From Muribaculaceae bacterium (GTDB lineage: Bacteria > Bacteroidota > Bacteroidia > Bacteroidales > Muribaculaceae): a stretch of DNA of 53,908 bases. The notes beneath the pieces were generated by a model. The model worked only from the letters and a program-made list of their open reading frames with translations. It did no database searches and was not told the DNA's origin. Position numbers and translations under genes: made by a program. Shown here one piece after another: positions 7,251 through 24,354 of the stretch; the first letter of the stretch is position 1; the number at the start of each line of letters is the position of its first letter. The DNA lies in contig RYWL01000003.1 of assembly GCA_003979155.1 (NCBI GenBank), positions 1-53,908 on the forward strand, read 5' to 3'.

Positions 7251-7856
7251 TTACTTAGAGTAGAGCTCGACAATCAGCTGCTCCTTGATGTTCTCGGGGA
7301 TGTCTTCACGGGCGGGCACGTGGAGGAATTTGCCGCTCTTTGTGGTTTCGTCCCATTCAATCCAGGGATACTTGCTGTGGTTGAAGCCTGCGAGGGCGTC
7401 GGCGATTACTTCGAGAGATTTGCTGCGCTCACGAACGCCTACCACATCACCGGGTTTAACGGCATATGAAGCAACATTTACGACTTTGCCGTTTACTGTG
7501 ATGTGTTTGTGAAGCACTATCTGACGGGCTGCCGCACGGGTGGGGGCGATGCCCAGACGATACACTACGTTGTCGAGACGTCCTTCGAGAAGCTGGAGAA
7601 GAATCTCACCGGTGATACCTTTGAGGCTCGATGCTTTTTTGAAGAGGTTGCGGAACTGACGCTCGAGAACACCGTAGGTGTATTTTGCTTTCTGCTTTTC
7701 GCGGAGCTGTGTGCCGTATTCAGATGTTTTACGACGCTTGTTGGCTCCGTGCTGGCCGGGGGGGAAGTTACGGCGGGCCAGTACTTTGTCTTCGCCGAAA
7801 ATGGGTTCGCCGAACTTACGGGCTATTTTGGTCTTGGGACCTGTGTATCTTGCCAT
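7251..7856 (-). CDS. rpsD: 30S ribosomal protein S4
   Basis: Primary 16S rRNA-binding protein, 201 residues, that nucleates assembly of the 5' domain. The S4 RNA-binding fold spans about residues 90-155 ([10 protein letters not shown]...). There is no cysteine, so this is the zinc-free form. In E. coli S4 represses its own operon. Here the gene is preceded by an unusually long 283-bp spacer that folds into a closed structure ending 5 nt before this ATG (see the leader entry), which suggests autoregulation at this point. Confidence 0.98.
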
Positions 7857-8142
7857 TGTATTAAAATCAGTTTTTGCGTCGGGGCTTGGTTAGCTGCCGG
7901 TGCATGCCTTTGGCGCAGCCGCGACCATAGAGAGGTGATTGAATATGGTCTATTCGCCTTAGGAATGCTCGAGGGTCTGCCGCCGGCAGTCGCTGTGTCC
8001 GCACTTCCGGGCTTTGGTGCCAGGCGCGGAGTGGTACGACGCTTTGGTTGAGTATTGTTTTGTGTGGGAACTAAAAGTGAAAGCAGAGTTGAAGCCGGGG
8101 GCCGTGGCTGGGCCGTGGCCTGTGGCTTCGCTACTGATTTTA
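7857..8142 (-). promoter_or_regulatory. Candidate S4 autoregulatory leader between rpsK and rpsD
   Basis: The 283-nt spacer is bracketed on the minus strand by TAAAATCAGT (8133-8142, including the rpsK stop codon) and its exact complement ACTGATTTTA (7862-7871), a 10-bp closing stem ending 5 nt before the rpsD ATG. Nested inside are GAAGCC/GGCTTC (8091-8096 with 8124-8129), GCGTCG/CGACGC (8037-8042 with 7876-7881), GACCATA/TATGGTC (7923-7929 with 7944-7950) and GCTGC/GCAGC (7893-7897 with 7915-7919). These helices are mutually compatible and form a branched fold. In E. coli S4 regulates the alpha operon through a structured leader. A Bacteroidia S4 leader motif may already be described; I could not check. 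Confidence 0.7.
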
Positions 8143-8529
8143 TACTCTTCTGCGCTTGGGAGGGCGGCAACCGTTGTGGGGCAGCGGGGTCACGTCGATG
8201 ATTTCGGTGACTTTGATGCCGGCGCCGTCTACTGTGCGGACAGCGGATTCACGGCCGTTACCCGGGCCTTTGAGGTATGCCTTCACTTTGCGGAGGCCGA
8301 GGTCGTAGGCTACCTTTGCACAGTCCTGGGCTGCCATCTGGGCGGCATAGGGTGTGTTCTTTTTGGAGCCACGGAAGCCCATCTTGCCGGCCGACGACCA
8401 GCTGATGATTTGTCCTTCGCTATTGGCAAGGCAAACGATGATGTTGTTGAAAGACGAGTGTACGTGAAGCTGGCCTTCTGCGCCGACTTTAACGTTACGC
8501 TTCTTTGCTGCGACTGCTTTTTTTGCCAT
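8140..8529 (-). CDS. rpsK: 30S ribosomal protein S11
   Basis: S11, 129 residues, of the 30S platform, next to the mRNA exit channel. The basic N-terminal extension is followed by the core ([11 protein letters not shown]) and the conserved end [11 protein letters not shown]. It follows rpsM by 9 bp. Its TAA stop forms part of the closing stem of the downstream S4 leader candidate, so ribosomes finishing S11 would transiently open that stem. Confidence 0.98.
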
Positions 8530-8538
8530 ATTGATTGA

Positions 8539-8919
8539 TTATTTAGTAGCTTTCTTCTTGTTAGCAACAGTTTTCTTGCGGCCCTTGCGGGTGCGGGCAT
8601 TGTTTTTGGTGCTCTGTCCGCGAACGGGGAGGCCGTTGCGGTGACGGACGCCGCGGTAGCAGCCGATGTCCATCAGGCGCTTGATGTTGAGCTGGATTTC
8701 GCTGCGGAGGTCGCCTTCTACTTTGTAGTCGGCACCGATAACCTCGCGCACTTTGGCGGCCTGGTCGTCGCTCCAGTCTTTTACTTTGATGCTTGGGTCG
8801 ATTGCTGCTTTGTCGAGAATCGATTTGGCGGCGCTCCGGCCGATGCCGAAGATATATGTCAAGGCGATATCACCTCTTTTGTTTTGGGGGAGGTCAACTC
8901 CCACGATGCGTACTGCCAT
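8539..8919 (-). CDS. rpsM: 30S ribosomal protein S13
   Basis: S13, 126 residues, of the 30S head, contacting the P-site tRNA and 50S bridge B1. The N-terminal helix-two turn-helix part has [19 protein letters not shown]. The basic C-terminal tail that reaches the tRNA starts near [14 protein letters not shown] typical length. Confidence 0.98.
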
Positions 8920-8960
8920 ATTTCTGTGTCAGTTTGTTTTTTGGTTCAAAAATAACAGAA

Positions 8961-9077
8961 TTATCCTTGACGTTGTTTTAACTTAGGGTTTTTCTTGTTA
9001 ATGACATAGAGACGTCCTTTGCGACGGACAATCTTGCTGTCGGGAGTGCGTTTTTTGACGGAAGCTCTTACTTTCAT
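8961..9077 (-). CDS. rpmJ: 50S ribosomal protein L36, zinc-free form
   Basis: A 38-residue gene: starts [20 protein letters not shown], ends PKLKQRQG. The CxxC plus Cys/His zinc ligands of the classic L36 are absent: the first CxxC is replaced by TPDS and there is no Cys in the protein. It is therefore a zinc-independent (C-minus) L36. It sits in the standard place between infA (17 bp) and rpsM. Confidence 0.96.
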
Positions 9078-9094
9078 ATCTTTTAGTGTTTCGA

Positions 9095-9313
9095 TTATTT
9101 ATAGCGGAAGGCAATGCGTCCTTTGGACAGGTCATAGGGCGACATTTCTACGCGCACTTTGTCGCCGGGAAGGATTTTGATGTAGTGCATCCTCATTTTA
9201 CCGGAGATGTGTGCGGTGATTTCGTGCCCGTTCTCGAGCTCGACGCGAAACATTGCGTTGCTCAGAGCCTCGACGATTGTACCGTCCTGTTCGATTGCTG
9301 ATTGTTTTGCCAT
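9095..9313 (-). CDS. infA: Translation initiation factor IF-1
   Basis: A single OB-fold protein of 72 residues, the exact usual length. It covers the A site of the 30S subunit during initiation and assists IF-2 and IF-3. The segment [20 protein letters not shown] and the end GRIAFRYK are characteristic. Located 10 bp after map, the standard order secY-map-infA-rpmJ. Confidence 0.98.
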
Positions 9314-9323
9314 ATAAGGTGTT

Positions 9324-10106
9324 TCAAATAAATTTATCTGTGATTGCCTGATGAATGTAGTCGAATGTGGTGAGCACTTCGGTGCGGCCGTCGACTATGG
9401 CGAGCGTGTGCTCATAGTGTGCCGACGGACGGCGGTCGCGCGTGCGGCACTCCCAGCCGTTGGGCTCTATGACGATGTTGCGGCTACCCATGTTTATCAT
9501 GGGCTCGATGCAGATGCACATGCCGTCCTGCAGACGGTGTCCGATGCCGCGGCGGCCGTAATTGGGCACCTCGGGGTCTTCGTGCATGTGGCGTCCGATG
9601 CCGTGGCCGCACATTTCGCGCACTACCGAGTAGTTGCGCTTCTCGCAGTAGGTCTGCACTGCATTGGCGATGTCTCCGATGCGGGCGCCGGGTTTTGCGG
9701 CTTCGATGCCTACATAGAGCGATTCGCGGGTGGTGCGGCAGAGGGCTTTTTTCTCAGGGGAGATAGTGCCCACTGCGAAAGTGTAGCAACTGTCGCCCAT
9801 AAAGCCGTCTTTCTCTACCACAGTGTCGATGCCTACGATGTCGCCGTCGAGCAGGATGCGCTCGCTGGGGAATCCGTGCACGACTGTTTCGTTTACTTCA
9901 ATACAGAGCGTTCCCGGAAAGCCTTCGTAACCCAGACAGGCGGGCTTGCCCCCATTGTCCAGGATAAATTCCCGGGCAATGGTGTCAAGCTTGCGTGTGG
10001 TTACTCCGGGTTCAATCCAGCGGCCCACTTCTGCCAGTGTCTTGGAGACAAGAGCGGCTGCGGCCCGCATTTGTTCGATTTCTTCCGGTGTCTTGAGATA
10101 AATCAT
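9324..10106 (-). CDS. map: Methionine aminopeptidase, type I
   Basis: Removes the N-terminal Met from nascent proteins in the cytoplasm. 260 residues in the pita-bread fold. All metal ligands are visible: Asp94 (VGID), Asp105 (GFMGD), His168 ([11 protein letters not shown]), Glu201 (CIEPMI) and Glu232 (HYEHTLAI). Substrate-binding His77 lies in VVHGFP. Co-transcribed between secY and infA. Confidence 0.97.
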
Positions 10107-10143
10107 TTAAGTAAGTCTAATGAATTCTGCAGAATGGCGCTGC

Positions 10144-11493
10144 TCAATAAGCCTGACCGGTGGTGCGGCCTTTGATTTTGCCTTCTTTCATCAGGCCGTC
10201 GTAGTGGTGCATCATCAGGTGCGATTCAATCTGCTGGAGTGTGTCGAGCACTACGCCCACCATAATCAGCAGCGATGTGCCGCCGAAGAACTGGGCGAAG
10301 TTCTGGCTGATGCCGAAGAAGCGGGCAAAGGCCGGAAGGATTGCTACGATACCGAGGAAGATTGAGCCGGGAAGGGTGATGCGCGACATTATGGCGTCGA
10401 GATATTCGGCTGTCTTCTTGCCGGGTTTTACACCGGGAATGAATCCGTTGTTGCGCTTCATGTCTTCGGCCATCTGAGTGGGACGCACTGTGATAGCAGT
10501 GTAGAAGTATGTGAAGGCAACGATGAGGATGAAGAACACAGCGTTGTACCAGAAGCTGTTGATGTCGGTAAATGCGCCGAGGAAGCCCGACTCTGCGCCG
10601 CGGAAGCCTGCAAGTGTCATGGGAATGAACATGATGGCCTGGGCGAAGATGATAGGCATTACGCCGGCGGCGTTCACCTTCAGAGGTATGTACTGGCGAG
10701 CGCCGCCATACTGGCGGTTGCCCACGATGCGCTTGGCATACTGTACGGGCACTTTGCGGGTACCCTGTACGAGCAGTACTGCGCCAACGGTAACGGCGAA
10801 CAGGAGCACGATTTCTACGATGAACATCACCAGACCGCCCTGGCTGCCGGAGGCTCCCGGAAGACGGCTTACGAATTCATAGTAGAGAGCTCCCGGAAGA
10901 CGTGCGATGATACCGACGAGGATGATGAACGATATACCGTTGCCCACGCCGCGGTCGGTGATACGCTCACCGAGCCACATGATAAACATCGCACCTGCTG
11001 CAAGGATTATAGTGAGATAAACTACTGTCCAGAAACCGAGCTGGAGAGTGCTTCCGTTTGCGGCTCCGTTTACCTGCACCTGAAGGTTAATCAGGTAAGC
11101 GGGAGCCTGAAGGAAGAGGATGAGCACGGTGAGGTAGCGGGTGTACTGGTTGAGTTTCTGACGTCCGCTTTCACCCTCGCGCTGCATCTTCTGGAACGAA
11201 GGCAGTATCATGCCGCACAGCTGTATGACAATCGATGCCGTGATATAGGGCATGATGCCGAGTGCGAAGATAGATGCCTGTGAGAAAGCACCTCCGGAGA
11301 ACATATCCAGCAACTGCATGAGGCCGCTCTTGTTTGTGAAGTTTGCAAGGGCGTCTATGTCAGAAGGGGAGATGCCGGGGAGCACTACATAACAACCGAG
11401 ACGGTAGATGAATACCAGCAAGAGTGTTATGAGCAGCCTCTGGCGAAGCTCCTGGATTGTCCAGATATTTTTAAGGGTTTCTATAAATCTCAT
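10144..11493 (-). CDS. secY: Protein translocase subunit SecY
   Basis: Pore subunit of the SecYEG translocon in the inner membrane, 449 residues with ten predicted membrane spans. The N-terminus (MRFIETLKNIWTIQELRQR) and the cytoplasmic loop with YPGVKPG-type sequence (FIPGVKPGKKTAEYLD) are typical, as is the QGTRKVPVQYAKR region in the C4 loop that binds SecA and ribosomes. It begins 2 bp after rplO, as expected for the end of the spc block. Confidence 0.98.
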   Translation of the reverse strand: MRFIETLKNIWTIQELRQRLLITLLLVFIYRLGCYVVLPGISPSDIDALANFTNKSGLMQLLDMFSGGAFSQASIFALGIMPYITASIVIQLCGMILPSFQKMQREGESGRQKLNQYTRYLTVLILFLQAPAYLINLQVQVNGAANGSTLQLGFWTVVYLTIILAAGAMFIMWLGERITDRGVGNGISFIILVGIIARLPGALYYEFVSRLPGASGSQGGLVMFIVEIVLLFAVTVGAVLLVQGTRKVPVQYAKRIVGNRQYGGARQYIPLKVNAAGVMPIIFAQAIMFIPMTLAGFRGAESGFLGAFTDINSFWYNAVFFILIVAFTYFYTAITVRPTQMAEDMKRNNGFIPGVKPGKKTAEYLDAIMSRITLPGSIFLGIVAILPAFARFFGISQNFAQFFGGTSLLIMVGVVLDTLQQIESHLMMHHYDGLMKEGKIKGRTTGQAY

Positions 11494-11495
11494 AA

Positions 11496-11942
11496 TCAGA
11501 TGGTTTGAACATTTCCGCCGGCAGCCTCGATAGCTGCTTTAGCTGCTGCGGAGAATGCGTTGGCTTCAACGGTGAGAGGAGTGTTGACCGTGCCTACGGC
11601 GAGCACCTTCACAAGCTGGCCGCGACGGAGGTAGCCTGCTTCGCGGAGCTCCTCGATGCCCACTTTCTGAAGCTGACGTGCTTCGGCAAGTGCTGCGATG
11701 AGGGTGAGGTTGATAGCTTTGTATTCAACACGGTTCAAGTTCTTGAAGCCGAATTTGGGCACGCGGCGCTGGAGGGGCATCTGACCGCCCTCGAAGCCGA
11801 TTTTACGCTTGTAGCCCGAGCGCGACTTGGCGCCTTTGTGACCACGGGTCGATGTGCCGCCTTTACCGGAGCCGGGACCGCGGCCGATGCGTTTGCCGGC
11901 CTTTACTGAGCCGGGAGCGGGCTGAAGATTGCTTAATTTCAT
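11496..11942 (-). CDS. rplO: 50S ribosomal protein L15
   Basis: L15, 148 residues. The Gly/Arg-rich N-terminal extension ([19 protein letters not shown]) threads into 23S rRNA. The globular C-terminal domain ends with [17 protein letters not shown] late-assembling protein near the peptidyl transferase periphery. Confidence 0.97.
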
Positions 11943-11956
11943 TGTGCTGGTCGTTT

Positions 11957-12136
11957 TTAAGCGTTCGTCACTTCTACGAGGTGACGGACTTGGTTTACCA
12001 TACCCATCACAGAGGGTGTGTTTTCTTTCACCACGGTGTGATTCATTTTCTTGAGGCCGAGGGCATCGAGTGTGCGCTTCTGAACGGCGGGGCAGTTGAT
12101 GCGGCTCTTTATTTGTTTGATTTTAATCTGTGCCAT
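11957..12136 (-). CDS. rpmD: 50S ribosomal protein L30
   Basis: A 59-residue gene: starts [16 protein letters not shown], ends HLVEVTNA. The compact ferredoxin-like L30 fold with [13 protein letters not shown] is intact. Lies 14 bp before rplO and 20 bp after rpsE. The start is the only ATG that preserves the conserved N-terminus. Confidence 0.96.
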
Positions 12137-12156
12137 GTTAAGTGTTGTTTTACGGG

Positions 12157-12675
12157 TTAGCCTTTGAACACTTTCTCAACCGATATACCGCGGTTCTGTG
12201 CCACCTGGGCGGGCGAACGCATTTCATCGAGAGCGGCGATTGTGGCCTTGACGAGGTTGTGGGGGTTCGACGAACCTTTGGATTTGGCGAGCACGTCGGT
12301 GATACCCACGCTCTCGAGCACGGCACGCATAGCACCACCGGCTTTCACACCGGTACCGTGGCTTGCGGGCTTCAGGATAATGCGGCTACCGCCGAATTTA
12401 GCCACCTGCTCGTGGGGAATGGTGCCTTTGTGAACGGGCACGCGGATAAGGTTTTTCTTTGCAGCCTCTACGCCTTTGGCGATAGCTGCCTGTACTTCGT
12501 TGGCTTTGCCAAGACCCCAGCCGATGATGCCGTCTTCGTTACCGACAACGACAATGGCCGAGAAGGTGAAAGTACGGCCACCTTTGGTTACTTTGGTAAC
12601 GCGGTTGATGGCTACCAGGCGGTCTTTGAGGTCGAGGTCGCCGGTTGTCTTTACTCTGTTGTTTCTTTTAGCCAT
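12157..12675 (-). CDS. rpsE: 30S ribosomal protein S5
   Basis: S5, 172 residues. The N-terminal double-stranded-RNA-binding-like domain has [18 protein letters not shown], and the C-terminal alpha/beta domain has the glycine-rich [15 protein letters not shown]. It lies at the neck of the 30S subunit and affects decoding fidelity and helicase activity at the mRNA entry. Confidence 0.98.
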
Positions 12676-12681
12676 AGTTTA

Positions 12682-13026
12682 TCAGAATTTGAGGCCGGCG
12701 CTGCGTGCAGCATCAGCGAGAGATTTAACACGGCCATGGAAGAGGTAACCGTTGCGGTCAAATACCACTTCGGTGATGCCTGCTTCGAGGGCTTTGGCTG
12801 CGATTGCAGTGCCTACGGCGGCTGCGATTTCGCATTTGGTGGCCTTCATGTCGAGGCCTTTGGAGCTTGTAGCAACGAGTGTGCGGCCGGCGAGGTCGTC
12901 GATAATCTGCACGTAAATCTGTTTGTTGCTGCGGAAGACGGTCATGCGCGGACGCTCGGCGGTGCCGGAGATTTTGCCGCGGATACGTGTCTTGATTTTA
13001 TTTCGTCTTGCTATCTTTGAAATCAT
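12682..13026 (-). CDS. rplR: 50S ribosomal protein L18
   Basis: A 5S rRNA-binding protein of 114 residues with the expected basic N-terminus ([17 protein letters not shown]) and core [14 protein letters not shown]. Together with L5 and L25-type proteins it attaches 5S rRNA to the central protuberance. It ends 6 bp before rpsE. Confidence 0.98.
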
Positions 13027-13042
13027 GACTTGCTCTTATTTG

Positions 13043-13603
13043 TTATTTGGCGCCGGCCTTCTTGCCGGACTTGCGGCGGATGATTTCGCCGACGAACTTG
13101 ATACCTTTGCCCTTATAAGGTTCGGGCTTGCGGAATGAGCGAATCTTTGCGCATACCTGGCCGAGGAGCTGCTTGTCGTCGCTCTCAAGGATGATAAGCG
13201 GGTTTTTGTTACGCTCCGACTTTGCTTCCACGGTCACTTCGGGCGGAAGCTTGAGATATATGGCGTGCGAGTAGCCCAGGGCGAGCTCGAGAACGTTGTT
13301 TGCGGCGCTGGCGCGATAGCCTACACCTACAAGCTCCATTTCTTTGCGGTAGCGCTGATGCACACCTTCTACCATGTTGTGGAAAAGGGCACGGTAGAGG
13401 CCGTGCTGGGAGCGGTGCTCGATGTCGTCGCTCGGACGGGTTACAAGAATCTGATTGTCTGCGACGGTGACGGTGAGGTCGGGATGATATTTCTGGCTTA
13501 ATTCACCGTATTTTCCTTTGACGGTCACGACGTGGTTTTTCTCATCAACCGTCACTGTTACGCCTGCGGGAATCGCGATAGGGGCTTTACCAATTCTAGA
13601 CAT
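13043..13603 (-). CDS. rplF: 50S ribosomal protein L6
   Basis: L6, 186 residues, made of two tandem copies of the same alpha/beta fold. The start MSRIGKAPIAIPAGV and the C-terminal signature region KPEPYKGKGIKFVGE are diagnostic. Sits near the GTPase-associated centre. Follows rpsH by 24 bp. Confidence 0.98.
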   Translation of the reverse strand: MSRIGKAPIAIPAGVTVTVDEKNHVVTVKGKYGELSQKYHPDLTVTVADNQILVTRPSDDIEHRSQHGLYRALFHNMVEGVHQRYRKEMELVGVGYRASAANNVLELALGYSHAIYLKLPPEVTVEAKSERNKNPLIILESDDKQLLGQVCAKIRSFRKPEPYKGKGIKFVGEIIRRKSGKKAGAK

Positions 13604-13627
13604 AATCGATAATTTTTAACGGGTTGA

Positions 13628-14026
13628 TTAATATACGTAGCAAAGTACTTCGCCGCCGATTTTCTTCTCGGCAGCTGCTTTGTTTGTCATGACGCCTTGT
13701 GAGGTCGACAGGATGGCGATGCCGAGGCCGTTGAGCACGCGAGGCATGTCTTTGTATCCTGTGTACTGGCGGAGACCGGGACGCGATACGCGCTTGAGGC
13801 CTTTGATGGCGCTCACGCGGTCTGCCGGGTCGTATTTGAGGGCGATTTTGATGAGGCCCTGATTGTTTTCGCCGTCTATAAACTTGTAGTTAAGAATATA
13901 GCCTTGTTCAAAGAGAATCTTTGTAATCTCTTTCTTCAAGTTTGAGGCGGGAACTTCCACTACTCGGTGGTTGGCTTTGATAGCGTTCCTCAATCTTGTG
14001 AGATAATCTGCTATTGGGTCAGTCAT
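13628..14026 (-). CDS. rpsH: 30S ribosomal protein S8
   Basis: Primary 16S rRNA-binding protein for the central domain, 132 residues. The N-terminus (MTDPIADYLTRLRNA) and C-terminal RNA-binding part (GIAILSTSQGVMTNKAA) are typical. In E. coli S8 represses the spc operon by binding mRNA at rplE. Here the gene is preceded directly by a 135-bp hairpin-rich spacer, which is where an S8-responsive site would be expected in this genome. Confidence 0.98.
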   Translation of the reverse strand: MTDPIADYLTRLRNAIKANHRVVEVPASNLKKEITKILFEQGYILNYKFIDGENNQGLIKIALKYDPADRVSAIKGLKRVSRPGLRQYTGYKDMPRVLNGLGIAILSTSQGVMTNKAAAEKKIGGEVLCYVY

Positions 14027-14161
14027 TGTTATGATTGTTTAAATTGATTGGGCCGGAATGCCCAACAATATTTAATACTCTCGGATGCGGTGCGGTCAAT
14101 ATCCGCCACGGGCGGATTGGCCTCGCCGCCTGCCCGGAAAGGGGCAAGCCGGGGAGAGTGA
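14027..14161 (-). promoter_or_regulatory. Candidate S8 autoregulatory leader between rpsN and rpsH
   Basis: The 135-nt spacer contains a long-range stem ACTCTC/GAGAGT (14154-14159 with 14077-14082) enclosing two perfect hairpins: TGCCC/GGGCA (14131-14146) and ATCCGCC/GGCGGAT with a 3-nt loop (14101-14117). This is a three-way-junction layout. A separate hairpin, TTGGGC/GCCCAA extended by ATTG/CAAT with one bulge (14043-14069), stands immediately upstream of the rpsH start. Neighbouring spacers are about 9-24 bp. S8 is a known operon repressor in E. coli; the link here is inference. Confidence 0.6.
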
Positions 14162-14479
14162 TTACCAGCTTGCCTTTTTAACGCCGGGGATAAGGCCCTG
14201 TGAGGCCATTTCGCGGAACTGGATGCGGGAGATGCCAAACTGACGCATGTAACCCTTGGGACGACCGGTGATTGAGCAGCGGTTGTGCAGACGGATGTAA
14301 GATGCGTTTTTGGGCATGCTCTGGAGAGCCTGGGCGGCTTCGTAGGCTGCAGCGCGCTTCTCGTCGTCGGGCTGGTTGCCTTCATTGACGATTTTTTTGA
14401 GCTCGGCCTTACGCTGGGCGTATTTCTGGACGAGTTTCTGGCGCTTTACCTCGCGGGCTTTCATTGATTCTTTAGCCAT
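14162..14479 (-). CDS. rpsN: 30S ribosomal protein S14, long zinc-free form
   Basis: S14, 105 residues. The CxxC...CxxC zinc ligands of short S14 are absent, so this is the long zinc-independent type. The conserved C-terminal half is [19 protein letters not shown]. The middle, about residues 28-60, is longer than in most long S14 proteins (about 89-101 residues). Located in the 30S head. Ends in [12 protein letters not shown]-type sequence as usual. Confidence 0.97.
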
Positions 14480-14488
14480 ATTGCTTCT

Positions 14489-15037
14489 TTATTTTTTAGC
14501 GTTTTTGAAGGGGAGGCCGAAGTGCTTGAGCAGTGCGTATCCTTCTTCGTCGGTATTGGCGGTGGTAACGAATGTGATGTTCATACCCATGAGCTTGTTT
14601 ATCTGGTCGATATTAATTTCGGGGAAGATAATCTGCTCGGTGATACCCAGTGTGTAGTTGCCACGGCCGTCGAGCTTGCCTTCGATACCCTTGAAGTCGC
14701 GGATACGGGGAAGAGCGACACGGATGAGGCGCTCGAGGAATTCGTACATTTTGTCGCGACGGAGTGTGACACGTACGCCGACGGGCATTTTTTTGCGGAG
14801 CTTGAAGTTGGAGATATCCTTCTTCGAGAGCGTTGCAACGGCTTTCTGACCGGTGATGGCGGTAAGCTCGTTGATTGCGGTCTCGATGAGTTTCTTGTCC
14901 TGAGTTGCTTCGCCGATGCCTTGATTGATAACAATCTTCTCAAGGCGGGGCACCTGCATCACAGTTGTATAGTTGAACTCACGCTCGAGAGCCGGAACGA
15001 TGCGCTCCTTGTAGTCTTTTTGCAGTGTGGTGCTCAT
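14489..15037 (-). CDS. rplE: 50S ribosomal protein L5
   Basis: L5, 182 residues, binds 5S rRNA and contacts the P-site tRNA in the central protuberance. [21 protein letters not shown]-type core and the C-terminal [18 protein letters not shown] are visible. Its start overlaps the rplX stop by one base (TAATG), suggesting coupled translation. Confidence 0.98.
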
Positions 15038-15354
15038 TATTTGATTTCCTGATTGGATTTTTTAGCGATACGGATAACCTTGCCGTTTTCGCGCTTGATA
15101 GCGATGCGGGTAGGTTTGCCCGATTTGGGATCGGCCAGGTTGATGTTAGAGATGTGAATGGGGGCTTCTTTCTTCACCAGGCCGCCCTGGGGATACTGTG
15201 CGGTGGGCTTGGTGGCTTTGGTGACGATGTTTACGCCTTCGACGATTGCACGGTTCTTGTCGCGGAGCACGGCCAGCACGCGACCGGTCTTGCCCTTGTC
15301 TTCGCCGGCAATGACAACGACTGTGTCGCCTTTTTTAATGTTTATCTTGCTCAT
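15037..15354 (-). CDS. rplX: 50S ribosomal protein L24
   Basis: Assembly-initiating 50S protein of 105 residues. A KOW motif occupies about residues 8-30 ([16 protein letters not shown]). The C-terminal part carries the Lys/Arg-rich contacts near the exit tunnel. 22 bp after rplN. Confidence 0.98.
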
Positions 15355-15376
15355 AGCGGTTCTTGATTGTTAATGA

Positions 15377-15742
15377 TTAGAGTACCTCGGGAGCGAGTGA
15401 AACGATTTTCATGTTCTTGGCACGGAGCTCGCGGGCTACGGGGCCGAAGATACGTGTGCCGCGCAGGTCGCCGTCGTTTTTGAGGAGCACGCAAGCGTTG
15501 TCGTCGAAGCGGATATATGAACCGTCGGGACGGCGCACTTCTTTCTTGGTGCGGACAACCATAGCACGAGATACTGTGCCCTTCTTCACTTCAGCACCGG
15601 GGATGGCGCTCTTTACGGTGACAACGATAACATCGCCTACCGAAGCGTAGCGGCGTCCGGTGCCGCCGAGTACGTGAATGCACAGAACTTCTTTTGCGCC
15701 GCTGTTGTCGGCCACGTTGAGACGTGATTCGGTCTGTATCAT
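15377..15742 (-). CDS. rplN: 50S ribosomal protein L14
   Basis: L14, 121 residues, the usual length. Starts [19 protein letters not shown] and contains the signature [13 protein letters not shown]. Part of intersubunit bridge B8 and the RsfS silencing-factor binding face. 2 bp after rpsQ. Confidence 0.98.
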
Positions 15743-15744
15743 TT

Positions 15745-16005
15745 TTACTTAACTTTTTCGATGATTTCAACTAATCTCCAGCGCTTGGTCTTGCTCAGAG
15801 GACGGGTCTCCATCAGGCGAACGGTGTCGCCGATTGAGCACTCGTTTTTCTCGTCGTGTGCGTGGTATTTTTTGGTCTTGTTGACGAACTTGCCGTAGAT
15901 AGGGTGTTTTTCCTTATACTTGACGGTGACGGTGATAGTCTTGTCGCCTTTATTGCTGGAGACCACGCCGATGCGTTCTTTTCGCAGGTTACGTTTTTCT
16001 TCCAT
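15745..16005 (-). CDS. rpsQ: 30S ribosomal protein S17
   Basis: A primary 16S rRNA-binding OB-fold protein of 86 residues. KTRKYHAHDE-like segment ([18 protein letters not shown]) and the conserved [16 protein letters not shown] end are present. Located 12 bp after rpmC. Confidence 0.98.
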
Positions 16006-16017
16006 TGTTGGCGTTGC

Positions 16018-16215
16018 TTATTTGTTGTTGAGTTCGCGCTGACGGAGCTCTGTTTTCACACGTGCGATAGTGCGGCGGTCGGCGGTTATCTTGGCGGTAT
16101 TGTCCAGGGGAGTGACAGCGTGGGTGGCGTTCTGCTGAAGGTATTCCTTCTGAAGCTGGGCCAGACGCTCTTTGAGGTCAGCGGTGGACATTTCGCGGAT
16201 TTCTTCTTTCTTCAT
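16018..16215 (-). CDS. rpmC: 50S ribosomal protein L29
   Basis: A two-helix protein of 65 residues at the exit tunnel, where it contributes with L23 to the docking site for trigger factor and SRP. The MKKEEIREMSTADLKERL start is typical, and the RTIARVKTELRQRE end matches the family signature. Confidence 0.97.
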   Translation of the reverse strand: MKKEEIREMSTADLKERLAQLQKEYLQQNATHAVTPLDNTAKITADRRTIARVKTELRQRELNNK

Positions 16216-16221
16216 AGCTTA

Positions 16222-16653
16222 TTACACGTTTTGAGAGGGGTCATAGTCGCGGCGAACGACAAATTTGGTCAGCACGGGGAGTTTCTGTGCTGCCAGGCGA
16301 AGTGCTTCTTTTGCGATGTCGTAGCTTACGCCTTCAACTTCGATAAGTATGCGGCCCGGTGTAACAGGTGCGACGAATCCTTCGGGATTACCTTTACCTT
16401 TACCCATTCGGACGTCGGCAGGCTTGCGGGTGATAGGCTTGTCGGGGAATATGCGAATCCAGATTTGGCCCTGACGCTGCATGTGACGTGTAACGGCGAT
16501 ACGGGCAGCCTCTATCTGACGGCCGGTAATCCATTTGGTATCAAGAGTCTTGATGCCGAAAGACCCGAAAGCAAGCTGGTTGCCGCGCTGGGCGTTGCCT
16601 TTCTGACGGCCCTTCTGTGAGCGGCGGAATTTTGTTTTCTTAGGCTGTAACAT
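16222..16653 (-). CDS. rplP: 50S ribosomal protein L16
   Basis: L16, 143 residues. Starts [15 protein letters not shown] and has the signatures [16 protein letters not shown] and [16 protein letters not shown]. It lies beside the A-site tRNA elbow and is needed for late 50S assembly. Gap to rpmC is 6 bp. Confidence 0.98.
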
Positions 16654-16671
16654 AGTTTTATGCTTTCAGAG

Positions 16672-17406
16672 TTAACGGGTGGGTTTCTGTGAGCGGAAGT
16701 TGCGGCGCTCGCGGTCGCGACGGCCACCGGCGGGACGAGACTCCTTCTGCTGTGTGCTGAACTGGGGAGCGAGGTCGCGCTTGCCATATACCTCACCGCG
16801 GCAAATCCATACTTTCACACCTACGGCACCTACTTTGGTGTGTGCCTCTACGAGAGCGTAGTCGATATCGGCGCGAAGGGTGTGCAGCGGGGTGCGGCCT
16901 TCTTTGAACATCTCCGAACGTGCCATTTCGGCACCGTTCAGACGGCCCGACACCTGAATCTTGATGCCTTCGGCTCCGGCACGCATTGTCGATGCGACTG
17001 CCATCTTGACGGCGCGGCGGTAAGCCACTTTGCCTTCAATCTGACGTGCGATGGTCGAAGCTACGATTTCGGCGTCAAGTTCGGGACGCTTTACTTCGTA
17101 GATATTGATTTGTACGTCTTTGTCGGTGATTTTCTTGAGCTCTTCTTTGAGCTTCTCTACTTCCTGGCCGCCCTTGCCGATGATGAGGCCGGGACGCGAG
17201 GTGCAGACGGTGATGGTGATAAGCTTGAGCGTACGCTCGATAACGATGCGCGAGACACTGCATTTTGCCAGACGCACGTTGAGGTATTCGCGGATTTTAT
17301 AGTCCTCGAGGATGTTGTCGGGGTATTTGCCTTTTTCCGACCAGTTGGAGTCCCAGCCGCGGATTACGCCCAGGCGGTTGCTTATAGGATTAACTTTCTG
17401 TCCCAT
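16672..17406 (-). CDS. rpsC: 30S ribosomal protein S3
   Basis: S3, 244 residues. A type II KH domain with [14 protein letters not shown] (GKGG at 77-80) binds RNA. The C-terminal S3 domain ([13 protein letters not shown]) and a short basic Arg-rich tail follow. With S4 and S5 it lines the mRNA entry tunnel and unwinds mRNA. 3 bp after rplV. Confidence 0.98.
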
Positions 17407-17409
17407 TGG

Positions 17410-17823
17410 TTATGCCTCGGTTTTTTCGTTTTTTTCGATAGTGTCAACTTCCACGTAAACGTGGTTGGAGCGCTTGCGGATGCGGTAGCCGCGGCCCTGG
17501 GGGGCAGTGCGGAGGCGCTTGAGCATGGGAGCGCAGCTGACTTTGATAGTGGTGATGAAGAGCTCGCCGTCTTCGGCTTTGCGCTCGTTTTTCTGTTCCC
17601 AGTTGGCTACGGCCGAGCGTACGAGTTTCTCGACGCGTGCAGAAGCCTCTTTGTTAGAGAACTTGAGTATGCCGAGTGCGCGGAATACTTCTTTACCGCG
17701 AACCATGTCGGCTACCAGGCGCATTTTGCGGGGAGAGGTCGGAACGTTGAGGAGCTTTGCAAAAGCAATGCTCTTGTTTTCCTCCTTGCGCTGGTCGGCT
17801 GATATTCTTTTTCTTTTGCCCAT
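17410..17823 (-). CDS. rplV: 50S ribosomal protein L22
   Basis: L22, 137 residues, whose extended beta-hairpin lines the exit tunnel constriction where macrolides act. Core [18 protein letters not shown]. The hairpin tip lies around [19 protein letters not shown], with no visible deletion. A slightly acidic C-terminal tail follows. Confidence 0.98.
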
Positions 17824-17870
17824 TGTTATTTGGTCGTCTCTTTTAATCGATTGTTAAATTTTTCGGGCCC

Positions 17871-18140
17871 TTATTTCTTCTTGTTGCCTGAGTGACCGCG
17901 GAATGTGCGGGTGGGGGCGAACTCACCGAGTTTGTGGCCTACCATGTTTTCGGTCACATATACGGGGATGAACTTGTTGCCGTTGTGAACGGCGAAAGTC
18001 ATACCCACAAATTCGGGAGCAATCATGGAAGCACGGCTCCAGGTCTTGATTACGTTGCTCTTTCCGGAGGCTGCCATGGCGGCCACTTTCTTTTCGAGCT
18101 TAACGCTGATGAAGGGACCTTTTTTTAATGAACGGCTCAT
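17871..18140 (-). CDS. rpsS: 30S ribosomal protein S19
   Basis: S19, 89 residues, forming a head complex with S13. [15 protein letters not shown] start and the signature [16 protein letters not shown] are present. 47 bp separate it from rplV and 18 bp from rplB. Confidence 0.98.
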
Positions 18141-18158
18141 ATTGAATGCTATTTCAGA

Positions 18159-18989
18159 TTACTTCTTTTTTCTTCTCTCGATGATGTACTTGTTCGAAAG
18201 CTTCTTGGGCGAACGAGTCTTGAGACCTTTGCTGTAGAGGCCTTTGCGCGAACGGGGATGACCGCCGGAAGCGCGGCCTTCGCCACCGCCCATGGGGTGG
18301 TCTACAGGGTTCATCACAACACCACGGTTGTGCGGACGGCGGCCGAGCCAGCGGCTGCGACCGGCCTTGCCGGAGCTCTCAAGCGAGTGCTCGCTGTTGC
18401 CTACGGTGCCTACAGTGGCACGGCACTCGGCAAGCACTTTGCGGGTCTCGCCCGAAGGTAATTTGATGATAGCATAGTTTCCTTCACGGGAAACGAGCTG
18501 GGCGAAAGTGCCGGCAGAACGTGCCATGAAGGCACCCTGGCCGGGACGAAGCTCGATGCAGTGGATAACGGTGCCGACAGGAATCTTGCTCAGGGGAAGA
18601 GTGTTGCCGACTTCGGGTGCTGCATCGGGACCGCTGAGGAGTGTGGCACCTACCTGAAGGCCGTTGGGGGCGATGATGTAGGTCTTCACACCGTCAGCAT
18701 AGCAAAGCAGGGCTATGCGGGCCGAACGGTTGGGGTCGTACTCGATAGTCTTGACTGTTGCGGGTATGCCGTCGCGATTTCTCTTAAAGTCTATGATACG
18801 GTATTTGCGTTTGTGACCACCGCCAAGGTATCGGGCGGTGAGATGGCCTTCGCTATTACGGCCGCCGGTGGCACGCTTACCGACTGTAAGAGATTTTTCC
18901 GGTGTGGTAGCAGTGATTGTACCTTTAAACACACCGATGACTTTGTGACGCTGCCCAGGGGTGGTGGGCTTGAATTTTCTTACTGCCAT
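18159..18989 (-). CDS. rplB: 50S ribosomal protein L2
   Basis: The largest core 50S protein, 276 residues, required for subunit association and peptidyl transferase assembly. The start at [13 protein letters not shown] was chosen because the further upstream ATG adds 23 non-conserved residues and would overlap rplW. The C-terminal loop [13 protein letters not shown] keeps the essential His (E. coli His229); the second His of the E. coli HPH is Met here. Confidence 0.98.
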
Positions 18990-18994
18990 TGTTG

Positions 18995-19285
18995 TTAGAT
19001 GTTGCTGAAGAATTCGATGGACTGGCCGTCGGCGACGGTTACATAAGCTTTCTTCCAACGGCTTGTTTTGCCTTTGAGAAGGCCGCTCTTAGTCCAGCGT
19101 GATTTGTTCTTGCCGCGCATGACGGCGGTGTTGACGTTAGCCACTTTTACGCCGTAGAGCTGCTCGACCAGCGATTTAATCTGGCACTTGTTTGCAGAAG
19201 GCGACACGCGGAAGGTATAGCAATTGCGCTTTTCGGTAAGCTTAGTTGCTGCCTCGGTAATTATGGGGGTGATTGAAATTTCCAT
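18995..19285 (-). CDS. rplW: 50S ribosomal protein L23
   Basis: L23, 96 residues, at the tunnel exit and the main ribosomal anchor for trigger factor. Conserved features are the N-terminal ITEAATKL, the [20 protein letters not shown] segment with its exposed Glu, and the KSRWTKSG loop. 17 bp after rplD. Confidence 0.97.
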
Positions 19286-19302
19286 TGTGTGTGGTCTCCG
19301 TG

Positions 19303-19923
19303 TTAGAGTTTATTAAGCACGTCAACGCTGCCCTCGGTGAGAACCAGCGCGTTGTTGTTGAGTACTGCATACGTATTTATGTCCGATGCTGCCATCAGTC
19401 TGGCATCGGGCACATTACGCATTGACAAAAGTACGTTATTATTCTTTTCCGACAAAACGAGAAGTACTTTTTTGCCTTCAACTTTAATATTTTTAGCAAA
19501 ATTTATATATTCTTTAGTTTTGGGAGCTTCGAATGTAACGTTGTCTACCACAATAATCTCACCGGCAGCAGCTTTGAGGCTGAGTGCCGAACGACGTGCG
19601 AGGTCTTTGAGCTTCTTGTTGAGCTTGAAGCGGTAGTCGCGGGGACGGGGTCCGAAAACGCGTGCGCCGCCTACGAGTACGGGCGAGTTGATATCGCCGA
19701 TACGCGCGCCGCCGCCGCCTTTCTGCTTGTGAAGCTTGCGGGTTGAGCCGCTGAGCTCGCTGCGCTCTTTCGATTTGTGTGTGCCCTGGCGCTGGTTGGC
19801 AAGGTACTGCTTAACGTCGAGATAAAGGGCGTGCTCGTTGGGCTCGATTGCGAATACCTCGTCGTTGAGGGTTACGCGGCGGCCTGTATCCTGGCCTTGC
19901 TGGTTGTATACTGCGAGTTCCAT
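19303..19923 (-). CDS. rplD: 50S ribosomal protein L4
   Basis: L4, 206 residues. The long internal loop that enters the exit tunnel is visible as [19 protein letters not shown]. In E. coli L4 represses the S10 operon by attenuation in the rpsJ leader; here rpsJ has only 19 bp in front of it, so that mechanism has no room at the same place. 2 bp after rplC. Confidence 0.98.
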
Positions 19924-19925
19924 GT

Positions 19926-20543
19926 TTATTTCTCAATTAAGACGATTGAACCTTTGCTTCCGGGAATCGAGCCCTTAATCATGATAAGGTTGTGCTCGGG
20001 AATCACTTTGATAATCTGAAGGTTTTGTACTGTGACGCGTTCGTTGCCTGTCTGGCCGGCCATGCGCATGCCTTTGAACACCTTTGCGGGGTAAGAGCAG
20101 GCACCTACCGAACCGGGAGCGCGGAGACGGTCGTCCTGACCGTGTGTGGCCTGGCCGACACCGCCGAATCCGTGACGCTTCACTACACCCTGGAAACCCT
20201 TACCTTTGCTGGTGCCGATTACGTCGACAAAGTCAGCTTCGGTGAAGAAGTCGGCGCCGATTGTGTCGCCGAGAGCGTATGCGTTACCAAATCCTTTGAA
20301 CTCGGCCAAGTGACGCTTGGGAGCCACTCCGGCTTTCTTGAAGTGACCGAGCTGGGGCTGTGTGAGGTGCTTCTCCTTGATATCCTCGAAACCGAGCTGG
20401 AGTGCCTCGTAGCCGTCGGTGGCTTCTGTCTTAACCTGAGTGACAACACAAGGACCTACTTCGATGACAGTGCACGGCACATTGCGGCCGTCGGCACTGA
20501 AAACGGATGTCATTCCGATTTTCTTTCCAATTAATCCTGGCAT
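19926..20543 (-). CDS. rplC: 50S ribosomal protein L3
   Basis: L3, 205 residues, binds near the 3' end of 23S rRNA and starts 50S assembly. [16 protein letters not shown] start, and the central loop [19 protein letters not shown] that points to the peptidyl transferase centre. Separated from rpsJ by 57 bp, the largest ordinary gap in the cluster. Confidence 0.98.
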
Positions 20544-20600
20544 TTCTCTGTTAATTTGTATATTGGTTGTTTTTGTGAGGTGACTTTAGCGTTGTGCGTA

Positions 20601-20906
20601 TCAGCACTTGATTTCTACTTCTACACCGCTGGGAAGTTCGAGCTTCATCAGCGCGTCTACAATCTTGGGAGTAGCGTTGTAGATGTCGATGAGACGCTTG
20701 TAGCAGTTGAGTTCGAACTGTTCGCGGCTCTTCTTGTTGACAAAGGTAGAGCGGTTGACTGTGAAGATACGCTTGTGGGTGGGCAGGGGAATGGGACCGC
20801 TGATGACCGCTCCAATCGACTTCACTGTCTTTACGATTTTCTCGGCCGACTTATCGACGAGACTGTGGTCGTAAGATTTAAGTTTGATACGGATAATGGG
20901 GTTCAT
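20601..20906 (-). CDS. rpsJ: 30S ribosomal protein S10 (NusE)
   Basis: S10, 101 residues, of the 30S head that also acts as NusE in antitermination and transcription-translation coupling with Nus[22 protein letters not shown] and the long loop [19 protein letters not shown] are conserved. Follows fusA by 19 bp without an obvious promoter, so the str and S10 blocks look fused into one transcription unit. Confidence 0.98.
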
Positions 20907-20925
20907 ATATTTTGTATGTATTTTA

Positions 20926-23052
20926 TTATTTGATGAGGTCTACACGGCCCTGGCACTCGGTGAGTACTTCTTTGGCGATAGAGTTGGAGACTTCAGCGTA
21001 GTGCGAGAACGACATTGTGCTGGTTGCGCGGCCCGAGGTGATTGTACGGAGGGCTGTCACATAGCCGAACATTTCGGCAAGAGGTGCCTTGGCTTTCACA
21101 ACGCGTGCGCCCGAGCGGCTGTTTTCCATGCCCTCTACCTGACCGCGACGCTTGTTAAGGTCGGAGATTACGTCGCCCATCGATTCTTCGGGGGTAACGA
21201 CTTCTATCTTCATGATAGGCTCCATGAGCACGGGACCTGCCTTTTCGCTGGCTTTCTTGAATGCCTGGATTGCACAGAGTTCGAACGAAAGCTGATCGGA
21301 GTCGACCGGGTGGAACGAACCGTCGAGAACTGTTACTTTGAGGTGCTCTACGGGGAAGCCGGCAAGCACACCGTTCTTCATAGCGGTCTGGAAGCCCTTC
21401 TGAATCGAGGGGATGAATTCCTTAGGAATGTTACCGCCCTTGACTTCGTCAACGAACTGGAGGCTGCCGTCGAAACCTTCGTCAACCGGTTCGATACGAA
21501 CGATGATATCGGCGAATTTACCACGGCCACCGGTCTGCTTCTTGAATACTTCGCGGAGCTCGACAGGACGTGTGATAGCTTCTTTGTATGTAACCTGAGG
21601 ACGACCCTGGTTGCACTCTACCTTGAATTCGCGACGAAGACGGTCAATGATGATGTCGAGGTGAAGCTCGCCCATACCAGAGATAACGGTCTGTCCGGTC
21701 TCTTCATTGGTTTCAACACGGAATGTGGGGTCTTCTTCGGCAAGTTTCTGGAGACCAACGCCGAGTTTGTCAAGGTCTTTCTGAGTCTTGGGTTCTACTG
21801 CGATACCGATAACGGGATCGGGGAATTCCATTGCTTCGAGAACCATAGGAGCGTCTTCCGAGCAGAGTGTATCACCGGTGCGGATATCTTTGAAACCTAC
21901 ACCTGCGCCGATATCACCGCAGCCGATAGCTTCCATGGGGTTCTGTTTGTTGGAGTGCATCTGGAAGAGACGCGATACGCGCTCTTTCTTACCCGAACGG
22001 GTATTGTAGATATAGCTGCCGGCTACCATGTCGCCGGAGTAGACGCGGAAGAATGTGAGACGACCTACATAGGGGTCGGTTGCAATCTTGAACGCGAGAG
22101 CGCACAGAGGCGAGTCGCTCGAGGGAGTGCGGGTAACTACTTCGTCGGGGTTGTCTACAGCGCGGCCTTCAACATCACCTGTATCAATAGGGCTGGGGAG
22201 GTATGCGCATACAGCGTCGAGCAGATACTGAACGCCTTTGTTCTTGAACGACGAACCGCAGATCATGGGCACGAGGTCCATTGAAAGAGTTGCCTTGCGA
22301 AGAGCGCGCTTGATTTCCTCTTCTGTGATAGTAGAGGGATCGTCGAAATATTTAGCCATGAGATCGTCGTCATATTCGGCGATTTTCTCAAGCATCTTGT
22401 CGCGCCACTGTTCAGCTTCGTCAACGAGAGTCGACGGAATCTCTTCGAGGGTATAGTCGGCACCCATGGTTTCGTCGTGCCAGAGCACGGCTTTCATCTT
22501 GATAAGGTCGACTACGCCTTTGAAAGTTTCTTCGCTGCCGATAGGAATTTCAATGGGGCAGGGATTTGCGCCGAGTACATCGTGCACCTGACGGACAACT
22601 TCATAGAAGTTAGCGCCCGAGCGGTCCATTTTGTTTACGTAACCAATACGGGGCACGTTGTATTTGTCAGCCTGACGCCATACGGTTTCCGACTGGGGTT
22701 CAACACCACCAACAGCGCAGAAAGCAGCCACAGCACCGTCGAGTACACGGAGCGAACGCTCTACCTCGACAGTAAAGTCGACGTGTCCCGGAGTGTCGAT
22801 GAGGTTGATTTTATATTTTTCGTTGTTGTAGTTCCAGAAAGCCGTTGTAGCAGCAGAGGTAATTGTGATACCGCGCTCCTGCTCCTGTGCCATCCAGTCC
22901 ATTGTGGCGGCACCATCGTGCACCTCACCGATTTTGTGGGTAAGACCGGTGTAGAAAAGGATACGCTCCGATGTGGTGGTCTTGCCGGCATCGATGTGAG
23001 CCATGATGCCGATATTACGCGTATATTTAAGATGTGCGTCTTTTGTAGACAT
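20926..23052 (-). CDS. fusA: Elongation factor G
   Basis: Translocation GTPase of 708 residues. Domain I carries the P-loop AHIDAGKTT (18-26), the DTPGHVDF switch 2 and NKMDRSG. Domains II-V follow, with [15 protein letters not shown] and the C-terminal [13 protein letters not shown] loop. Works on the ribosome in translocation and, with RRF, in recycling. Located in the str block after rpsG, but no tuf gene follows, the usual Bacteroidota arrangement. Confidence 0.98.
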
Positions 23053-23091
23053 TTTAGTTGTATTGAGAATTTATAATCAACGGAAAATCGT

Positions 23092-23568
23092 TTAGAAACG
23101 GAAGTGAGCGAAAGCACGGTTGGCCTCGGCCATCTTGTGCATATCTTCCTTACGCTTGAATGCGCCGCCCTGGTTGTTGAAAGCGTCGACGATTTCAGCA
23201 GCAAGTTTGTCGGCCATTGTTTTGCCGCCGCGCTTGCGTGCGTAAGCGATAAGATTTTTCATTGAAATAGATTCTTTGCGGTCTGCGCGAATCTCGGTGG
23301 GCACCTGGAATGTCGCACCGCCCACACGGCGGCTCTTGACTTCTACCAAAGGTGTTACGTTCTCGAGAGCTTTCTTCCAGATATCGAGAGCAGCAAGCTC
23401 TTCGTTGGGGAGTTTTGCCTTCACTGTCTCGAGGGCGCTATAGAAAATTGCGAAAGCGGTATTTTTCTTACCGTCATACATGAGGTGGTTGACAAATTTG
23501 GTCACACGCACGTCACCATAAACAGGATCAGGGAGAATAATCCTTTTTTTAGGCTTTGCCTTTCTCAT
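23092..23568 (-). CDS. rpsG: 30S ribosomal protein S7
   Basis: Primary 16S rRNA-binding protein that nucleates the head domain, 158 residues. Starts [19 protein letters not shown] and contains the signature region [12 protein letters not shown]. In E. coli S7 represses str translation by binding the rpsL-rpsG intercistronic RNA. The same spacer is expanded here to 207 bp and is rich in hairpins. Confidence 0.98.
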
Positions 23569-23775
23569 TAGAGGTTTTTGTGTTTTTGTTTTTGATTGCT
23601 TGGTTGCTTTCTTCGTTTTTCTTCAGCGGTGCGGCCTCTGCCGCGTTGCTTACTCAACCATAAAGGACAGCTGCAAGAAATGCAAAAACGAGTTTAAAAA
23701 TTGATTTTTACTCGGGTGCTATAAGATTGCTTCACCCGCCGGGCCCTTCATTTCGAAGGAAAAACGTACGGCGAA
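23569..23775 (-). promoter_or_regulatory. Candidate S7 regulatory intercistronic region (rpsL-rpsG)
   Basis: The 207-nt spacer holds several stems in minus-strand order: CCTTC/GAAGG close to rpsL, GGGTG/CACCC (23733-23737 with 23714-23718), CGAGT/ACTCG enclosing AAAAAT/ATTTTT (23689-23714) directly followed by TTTTT (terminator-like), and GCGGC/GCCGC nearer rpsG. The E. coli equivalent is the S7 binding site. An attenuator here would separate S12 from S7 and everything downstream. A weak promoter-like pair (TTTTTG, 20 nt, TATGGTTG; 23655-23688) overlaps the hairpin and cannot be separated from it by eye. Confidence 0.5.
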
Positions 23776-24165: not shown

Positions 24166-24322
24166 CTTAGTTGGTTTGCTTTGTTACTTTTAATATCTTA
24201 TATTCGTTTTCTCGTTTTTGTCATCGAACGCGCACACAGGACATACACCCATAAAGCGCCCATCACGCTGCTGTACAACAACTTAGCGACGGAGCGGCAT
24301 TGAAGCGCACTGTTCAACGCCG

Positions 24323-24354
24323 CAAAGTTAGCAATTATTCGGCTAATAGCCAAA
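24323..24354 (-). promoter_or_regulatory. Promoter of the rpsL (str-S10-spc-alpha) cluster
   Basis: On the minus strand TTTG (24351-24354), a 20-nt spacer, and TAACTTTG (24323-24330): a perfect match to the Bacteroidota housekeeping consensus. The expected start near 24315 gives a long untranslated leader before rpsL. No equally good promoter is seen further downstream in the 18.4-kb cluster. Confidence 0.85.

Follow-up and report, generated by a model that had tools for sequence, protein, structure and literature searches.

Covarying RNA elements ahead of rpsG, rpsH and rpsD in Bacteroidales, putative autoregulatory leaders of the S7, S8 and S4 genes

Introduction

In a 53,908-nucleotide (nt) stretch of DNA from a Muribaculaceae bacterium (order Bacteroidales; assembly GCA_003979155.1, contig RYWL01000003.1, positions 1 to 53,908; the whole stretch is herein called the window), the ribosomal protein genes form a minus-strand cluster extending from rpsL (24165) to rplQ (5739), in which long spacers precede rpsG, rpsH and rpsD, the genes for S7, S8 and S4. 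We herein report that one covarying RNA element lies directly ahead of each of these three genes, as had been anticipated in an earlier note made from the sequence of the window alone. We postulate, with a probability of about 0.78, that each spacer carries a cis-acting leader through which the protein encoded immediately downstream would control its own synthesis, the binding and repression being deduced from sequence comparison. In Escherichia coli, all three proteins are known to regulate their own synthesis. We are highly confident of the leader reading for S7 and equally so for S4, whose ligand is taken from prior work; the similarities described below argue strongly for S7 as the ligand of its element, while S8, assigned by position, is the likely ligand of the element ahead of rpsH. 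The leader arrangement is common to part of the Bacteroidales, as supported by our genome surveys.

The S7 and S8 elements appear to be new. A search of Rfam, proposed in the earlier note as a check, identified the S4 element as family RF03139, whereas scanning the cluster against Rfam 15, even with a loose cutoff, gave no match to an S7 or S8 leader. The S4 element is thus already catalogued, and ribosomal leaders as a kind of RNA are already known. In a literature search of mostly open-access journal articles, no S7 or S8 leader was found for Bacteroidota. According to a 2024 review (PMC10931766), control by S7 was unstudied outside E. coli apart from a cyanobacterial suggestion, the E. coli S7 structure was not obviously conserved, and phylogenetic work on S8 control had not advanced.

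Results

Long Spacers in the Ribosomal Protein Cluster

The cluster is 18.4 kb long and co-directional, as previously described, and on recount comprises 33 genes, not 32, separated by 32 gaps. The outlying gaps of 207 nt (rpsG), 135 nt (rpsH) and 283 nt (rpsD) were confirmed, the next largest being only 57 nt (rplC), 47 nt (rplV) and 41 nt (rpsM). By simple arithmetic, the odds of exactly rpsG, rpsH and rpsD being the top three among 32 gaps are 1 in 4960. Judged by S8, the nearest named relatives are assemblies of Muribaculaceae and other Bacteroidales. Gap statistics were also collected from a larger set of loci in relatives, with some duplicate genomes included and the distant loci L048-L051 excluded (hereafter the core loci), and from a 20-genome gap table. 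The three-outlier pattern recurs there: the largest median gaps are again those of rpsG (159 nt), rpsD (152 nt) and rpsH (86.5 nt), each of the others being 61 nt or less, and spacers above 100 nt occur at 66/66 rpsG, 56/80 rpsD and 43/92 rpsH loci.

In the excluded distant loci, the rpsG/rpsH/rpsD gaps are 93/24/116 nt (L048, which has the S7 element according to the model R2 described below), 29/23/34 nt (L049), 25/18/35 nt (L050) and -4/54/22 nt (L051). Among 20 extra loci of the order, obtained as lower-identity S7 matches, the rpsG spacer is 14-33 nt long in 18; the remaining two have spacers of 114 nt with an S7 core (L296) and of 106 nt without it (L301). One locus from the genus of the window (L042, genome G023) has long spacers at many ribosomal genes, namely rplC (139 nt), rplP (309), rpsH (352), rplO (179), map (193), infA (141), rpmJ (142) and rpsD (444).

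The S7 Element

In our alignments, the element ahead of rpsG consists of a closing stem opened by GGUUG, followed by AGUA, a hairpin, GAAGA, a variable stretch and the closing CAACC; in the window, UGAAG begins at the final base of the hairpin (P2), and the element folds as modelled (z -2.14). By motif it was recognized at 66/66 rpsG core loci. Two of the S7 alignments were built from sequences chosen by the pattern GGTTGAGTAA, and two loci deviating from that pattern (L041 and L086) were recovered by the covariance model R2. This model matched 71 of 80 non-16S sources (1.15 Mb), once each and always at the rpsL-rpsG position, and none of four 16S loci. The matching sources comprise the 66 core loci and L048, all with both rpsL and rpsG mapped, and four loci in which rpsG follows (L033, L035, L038 and L036, the match in L036 being truncated by the locus end); of the nine without a match, six contain none or just the end of the spacer and three are the distant loci L049-L051.

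The sequence of the S7 hairpin changes freely while its pairing is kept. Cells in which both sides of a pair had changed numbered 43 in the MAFFT alignment A5 of 17 (11.7 after shuffling) and 158 in a model-fitted alignment of 59 distinct rows (40.2 after shuffling), the score of the latter being 0.492, compared with 0.159 for shuffled and at most 0.078 for slid controls. At the second pair of the hairpin, 47 rows have A-U and 11 have G-C. In two genomes of one family (f100) the closing stem reads AGUUG/CAGCU, by eye a matching change. The element thus shows both the covariation (in its hairpin) and the position upstream of a ribosomal protein gene that characterize ribosomal leaders.

The hairpin loop is mostly an RGNG-type tetraloop (AGAG, GGAG, AGCG, GGCG or GGUG), with insertions in L087, L099 and L103. 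In relatives, a block reading roughly GUUU..UUUAUUGGAUAGGCU recurs about 20-50 nt upstream of the element (alignment A7, columns 10-50). The consensus fold gives this A/U-rich block no pairs as an extension of the element; perhaps it is part of the element or a protein contact.

The S7 Core in 16S rRNA and in the E. coli Operator

The core of the element was described as AGUA, a helix of at least five pairs starting with A-U, and GAA. This descriptor occurs once in 16S rRNA in 7/7 sequences from the order, at helix 43, which we take to lie within the S7 footprint, and in 5/400 and 0/400 shuffled 16S sequences. The two RNAs share AGUA, the A-U-start helix and GAA, at the only such site in 16S rRNA, and differ in hairpin sequence and loop; the closing stem of the S7 element is also not the rRNA one. 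Among rpsG spacers, 52/70 passed the five-pair test.

The S12-S7 spacer of E. coli K-12, the site of the str operator, likewise presents, in a looser form, a closing stem (7 bp), AGUA, an A-U-start helix and GAA in the same order at the rpsL-rpsG position; it differs from the Bacteroidales element in the sequence of the closing stem, in one additional base ahead of AGUA and in having just three contiguous inner pairs. Moreover, in place of the longer arm of the E. coli operator, the Bacteroidales mostly have one short hairpin. This fit was equalled by 4/5000 shuffles (52/5000 without the closing-stem condition) and was the sole one among 3160 windows (38 kb, both strands), figures that flatter the match, since two conditions were set only after the E. 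coli sequence had been inspected, although the core itself was defined beforehand.

The S8 Element

The element ahead of rpsH is a 39-nt stem with the consensus UUAAA-UA-UUGU-[hairpin]-AUYAA-UUUAA, located no more than about 45 nt from rpsH; a UUAAA/UUUAA stem and a covarying hairpin flank a conserved asymmetric loop (UAUUGU / AUYAA), and the copy in the window ends 9 nt before rpsH. In an alignment of 76 of the 78 sequences found by pattern (L109 and L128 were removed because the pattern overran), 96.4% of cells are paired, changes on both sides of a pair number 109 compared with 38.0 after shuffling, and the score is 0.323, the controls reaching 0.137 (shuffled) and no more than 0.073 (slid). 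At one outer pair, 59 sequences have A-U and 17 have U-A. Apart from a single C/U position, no base of the loop varies in this pattern-chosen alignment; as most of the loop was prescribed by the pattern, the presence of the pattern in 90/92 core loci (all except L101 and L152) is the better measure of its conservation. The model R1 matched 75 of 81 non-16S sources (1.57 Mb), always just before rpsH, the six without a match being L048-L051, L101 and L152. Both the covariation and the position upstream of a ribosomal protein gene are those of a ribosomal leader.

Similar to the E. coli spc operator and 16S helix 21, the S8 element is a helix broken by a small conserved asymmetric loop. The classical S8 core, as given in a published account (PMC4176348), comprises the G597-C643 pair, U641, A642 and the base triple A595-(A596-U644). 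In our element, a G-pyrimidine and a U-A pair can be aligned to G597-C643 and U598-A640, but the counted pairing offers no clear counterpart of A642, although the RNAalifold register places an A there. Hence, S8 was assigned as the ligand on the basis of gene position and of S8 autoregulation elsewhere. The element also differs in location, standing before rpsH and not, like the E. coli spc site, at the start of rplE.

An extra stem, ACTCTC/GAGAGT, which encloses another hairpin, was found around the rpsH spacer (14027-14161) of the window, L033 and L036, with GCTCTC/GAGAGT in L083. The several additional perfect stems that had been pointed out in the spacers thus recur in part among close relatives, but, unlike the elements, are absent from most other loci.

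The S4 Element

The element in the rpsD spacer scores above the gathering threshold of RF03139, and the same genes follow it; in the study of Eckert and Weinberg (2020, PMC7247131), RF03139 is a Bacteroidia leader whose downstream genes are rpsD, rpoA and rplQ, and in the window rpoA and rplQ also lie downstream of rpsD. Outside the 34 nt covered by the Rfam model, a further stem of 3-6 pairs, often GCG/CGC or GUG/CAC, could be drawn in 32/36 relatives with a recognizable inner stem, a count for which the best linker was chosen, without a control; the model does not contain this outer stem. In the window, the predicted fold of the element is only modestly more stable than those of shuffled sequences (z -1.56), and the S4 pattern was found in 44/80 core loci.

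In the window and close relatives only, the ends of the rpsD spacer are complementary, so that the start region could be placed in a long-range stem. AUCAGU after rpsK and ACUGAU near the rpsD start were found together in 12/35 distinct loci from the genus of the window and its nearest named relatives; the two halves show no variation among close relatives. The block CUCUGCUUUCACUUUUAG also recurs within the rpsD spacer of the window and close relatives. Additionally, the S4 leader (7916-7950) contains CGCGGCUGC, an exact complement of GCAGCCGCG; the latter is present a single time, at about position 520, in 5/5 16S sequences checked, presumably in the 530 loop.

Distribution

Surveys of more than 40 genomes used stricter filters, whereby weak matches were lost, and the order surveys kept one match per matching genome. 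Among 198 genomes of the order, R2 matched in 45, R1 in 36 and RF03139 in 27. Of the R2 matches, 42/45 are at rpsG (30 by locus, 10 by coordinates, 2 by a separate check); 32/36 R1 matches are at rpsH (30 by locus, G185 through L238 and G059 by coordinates), G126, G168, G176 and G212 lying outside this check. Where survey loci were tested, the element stood at rpsG in 33/33 and at rpsH in 34/34. All 27 RF03139 genomes are also R2-positive and 24 have all three elements, the RF03139 figure being a count of genome matches whose positions were not compared with rpsD. The Fisher statistics for this co-occurrence include the three false R2 matches and take no account of phylogeny.

Among 217 genomes of the class, R2 matched eight plus G538, and R1 eight, every match but one falling within this order. 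The S7 core was found in none of 21 mapped rpsG spacers from the class (13) and the phylum (8), the test having started from 40 fetched loci, 19 of which were dropped as their rpsG start was unmappable.

Table 1. Features of the ribosomal protein cluster in the window, in the direction of transcription.
Feature	Position	Strand	Basis
Promoter-like -7 box TAACTTTG upstream of rpsL	24323..24330	-	read back
rpsL (S12)	23776..24165	-	open reading frame and gene order
rpsL-rpsG spacer, 207 nt	23569..23775	-	gap table; relatives
S7 element	23599..23661	-	model R2, 38.4 bits, E 1.7e-7; coordinates read back
S7 element parts	P1 GGUUG 23655-23659 / CAACC 23602-23606; AGUA 23651-23654; hairpin P2 23625-23650	-	
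rpsG (S7)	23092..23568	-	PF00177, 192.4 bits
rpsN	14479-14162	-	read from sequence
rpsN-rpsH spacer, 135 nt	14027..14161	-	gap tables
S8 element	14036..14077	-	model R1, 57.1 bits; pair counts; fold z -3.01
rpsH (S8)	13628..14026	-	as query found relatives across the order
Promoter-like -7 box TATTTTTG before rpsM	8947..8954	-	read back
rpsK-rpsD spacer, 283 nt	7857..8139	-	gap tables
Candidate long-range stem closing the rpsD spacer	7865..8139	-	AAUCAGU (8133-8139) with ACUGAUU (7865-7871)
S4 element with outer stem (GGCG/CGCC, outside the Rfam model)	7912..7958	-	stem search; coordinates read back
S4-Bacteroidia ribosomal leader, RF03139	7916..7950	-	38.9 bits, gathering 34.7
rpsD (S4)	7251..7856	-	open reading frame and gene order

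Discussion

Our collective results suggest how the leaders might work. When S7, S8 or S4 is in excess over 16S rRNA, the free protein would bind its own element. The S8 element ends a median of 12 nt from the start codon (5-19 nt, n=90) and the S7 element 30 nt (21-37 nt, n=66). Given these fixed short distances, a bound protein would hinder 30S loading, so that S7 or S8 held near the AUG would repress that cistron and the genes translated after it. We therefore consider it plausible that S7 and S8 act on translation initiation. Members of the Bacteroidetes phylum initiate without Shine-Dalgarno pairing, and S7 repression in E. coli requires rpsL-rpsG coupling, according to the 2024 review (PMC10931766).

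We further speculate, as a broader proposal to which we give even chances, that, in a lineage initiating without Shine-Dalgarno pairing, expression of the long ribosomal protein cluster is gated by three dedicated leaders, each directly ahead of the gene for a primary 16S binder, that the S7 core, being shared with helix 43 and the E. coli operator, is ancient or was repeatedly reinvented by rRNA mimicry, and that the S8 leader represents a new mode of RNA recognition by S8, one that dispenses with the A642-type core of the classical sites. For both S7 and S8, the elements provide defined RNAs on which experiments can be done in a major lineage of gut bacteria, and the shared S7 core allows a direct question, namely whether the regulation is ancestral or convergent. 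If the leader reading is true, it would also show ribosomal protein feedback where Shine-Dalgarno pairing is unused.

Several observations speak against the leader interpretation. Long gaps are found elsewhere in the cluster, exceeding 100 nt before rplC in 21/65 and before rpsM in 20/86 loci. The long rplC spacers share no motif by eye; on this ground we rejected the idea that long spacers are a general property of the cluster. Spacer lengths vary widely at rpsH (45-571 nt) and rpsD (18-474 nt). Regarding S7, the closing stem is nearly invariant, with a single change on both sides; when both strands of the window are scanned, the five-pair core is present at one site, away from the leader, and 18/70 rpsG spacers fail the five-pair test, including that of the window, which has three contiguous pairs. 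The three-pair minimum and the closing-stem condition applied to E. coli were chosen after its sequence had been seen. Weak R2 matches in G145, G147 and G148 (order) and G538 (class) lie away from ribosomal protein genes. The S8 alignment was chosen by pattern (AATATTGT, ATYAATT), so that the invariance of its loop is partly a product of selection, and R1 was mostly run on loci that had built it, which makes the order survey the more independent test. Finally, the S4 pattern is absent from 36/80 core loci, and its spacing to the start codon is loose (median 57 nt, 38-193 nt, n=44).

The variable length of the rpsH and rpsD spacers, together with relatives such as L042 that have many long spacers, could be taken to mean that the spacers simply evolve loosely and that the S4 leader is the sole real element among them. 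We regard such a chance origin as practically negligible, as the S7 and S8 pair counts lie far above shuffled and slid controls, and the long rplC spacers have no motif in common by eye. It could also be argued that the elements are conserved RNAs binding something else (another ribosomal protein, a ribonuclease or an RNA chaperone), or that they constitutively tune mRNA stability or re-initiation. The S8 loop is no clear copy of the rRNA site, and the sets of genomes carrying the three elements largely coincide, as might also be expected of a general processing system. However, the elements are structurally different, neither the S7 nor the S8 model matches at any gene but its own among the loci searched, the S7 core matches a site in 16S rRNA as well as the S7 operator of E. 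coli, and all three proteins autoregulate in E. coli; hence, we consider this explanation improbable, and favor autoregulatory leaders.

Promoter-like Boxes and Operon Structure

A further possibility is that the spacers serve chiefly as internal promoters or as 5' untranslated regions of separate operons, their structures being incidental. The sequence TAnnTTTG, which we take to be the Bacteroidetes -7 element, does recur within the cluster, in the rpmJ-rpsM spacer of 60/84 loci. For this promoter type, however, the box is present in just 2/66 rpsG, 2/92 rpsH and 0/80 rpsD spacers, and DNA elements do not explain covariation and fixed spacing; a role of the spacers as internal promoters, which we judge very unlikely, was therefore set aside. 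Given the scarcity of such boxes in the three spacers and their frequency ahead of rpsM, the elements seem to be intercistronic, and transcription of the cluster probably begins at no fewer than two points (rpsL and rpsM). A TTG 17-23 nt further upstream of the rpsM box was found in only 3/84 loci, so that this box is promoter-like and not proven.

These observations suggest a separate start for the rpsM-rplQ part and oppose the single giant operon that the earlier note had envisaged. Among the E. coli sites for S7, S8 and S4, only that of S4 is at an operon head. The contrast once drawn with E. coli, of sensors directly before each gene instead of at operon heads, accordingly fails: the E. 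coli site of S7 action is likewise the rpsL-rpsG spacer, and that of S8 is at rplE, within the spc operon, as stated in the review (PMC10931766).

Terminator-like sites occurred at the shuffled level (28 compared with 29.2) and sigma-70-like sites somewhat above it (21 compared with 13.2), neither being of use. Upstream of rpsL, a TAnnTTTG box lies 131-144 nt ahead of the gene in 24 of the 30 rows listed. RNAalifold, run on a poor alignment of the rpsL leader, returned no structure; by eye, this region (24166-24330 in the window), with its promoter-like box and long 5' untranslated region, shows a recurring long hairpin, e.g., AUAAUC-NNNU-GAUUAU, which is a possible further ribosomal leader.

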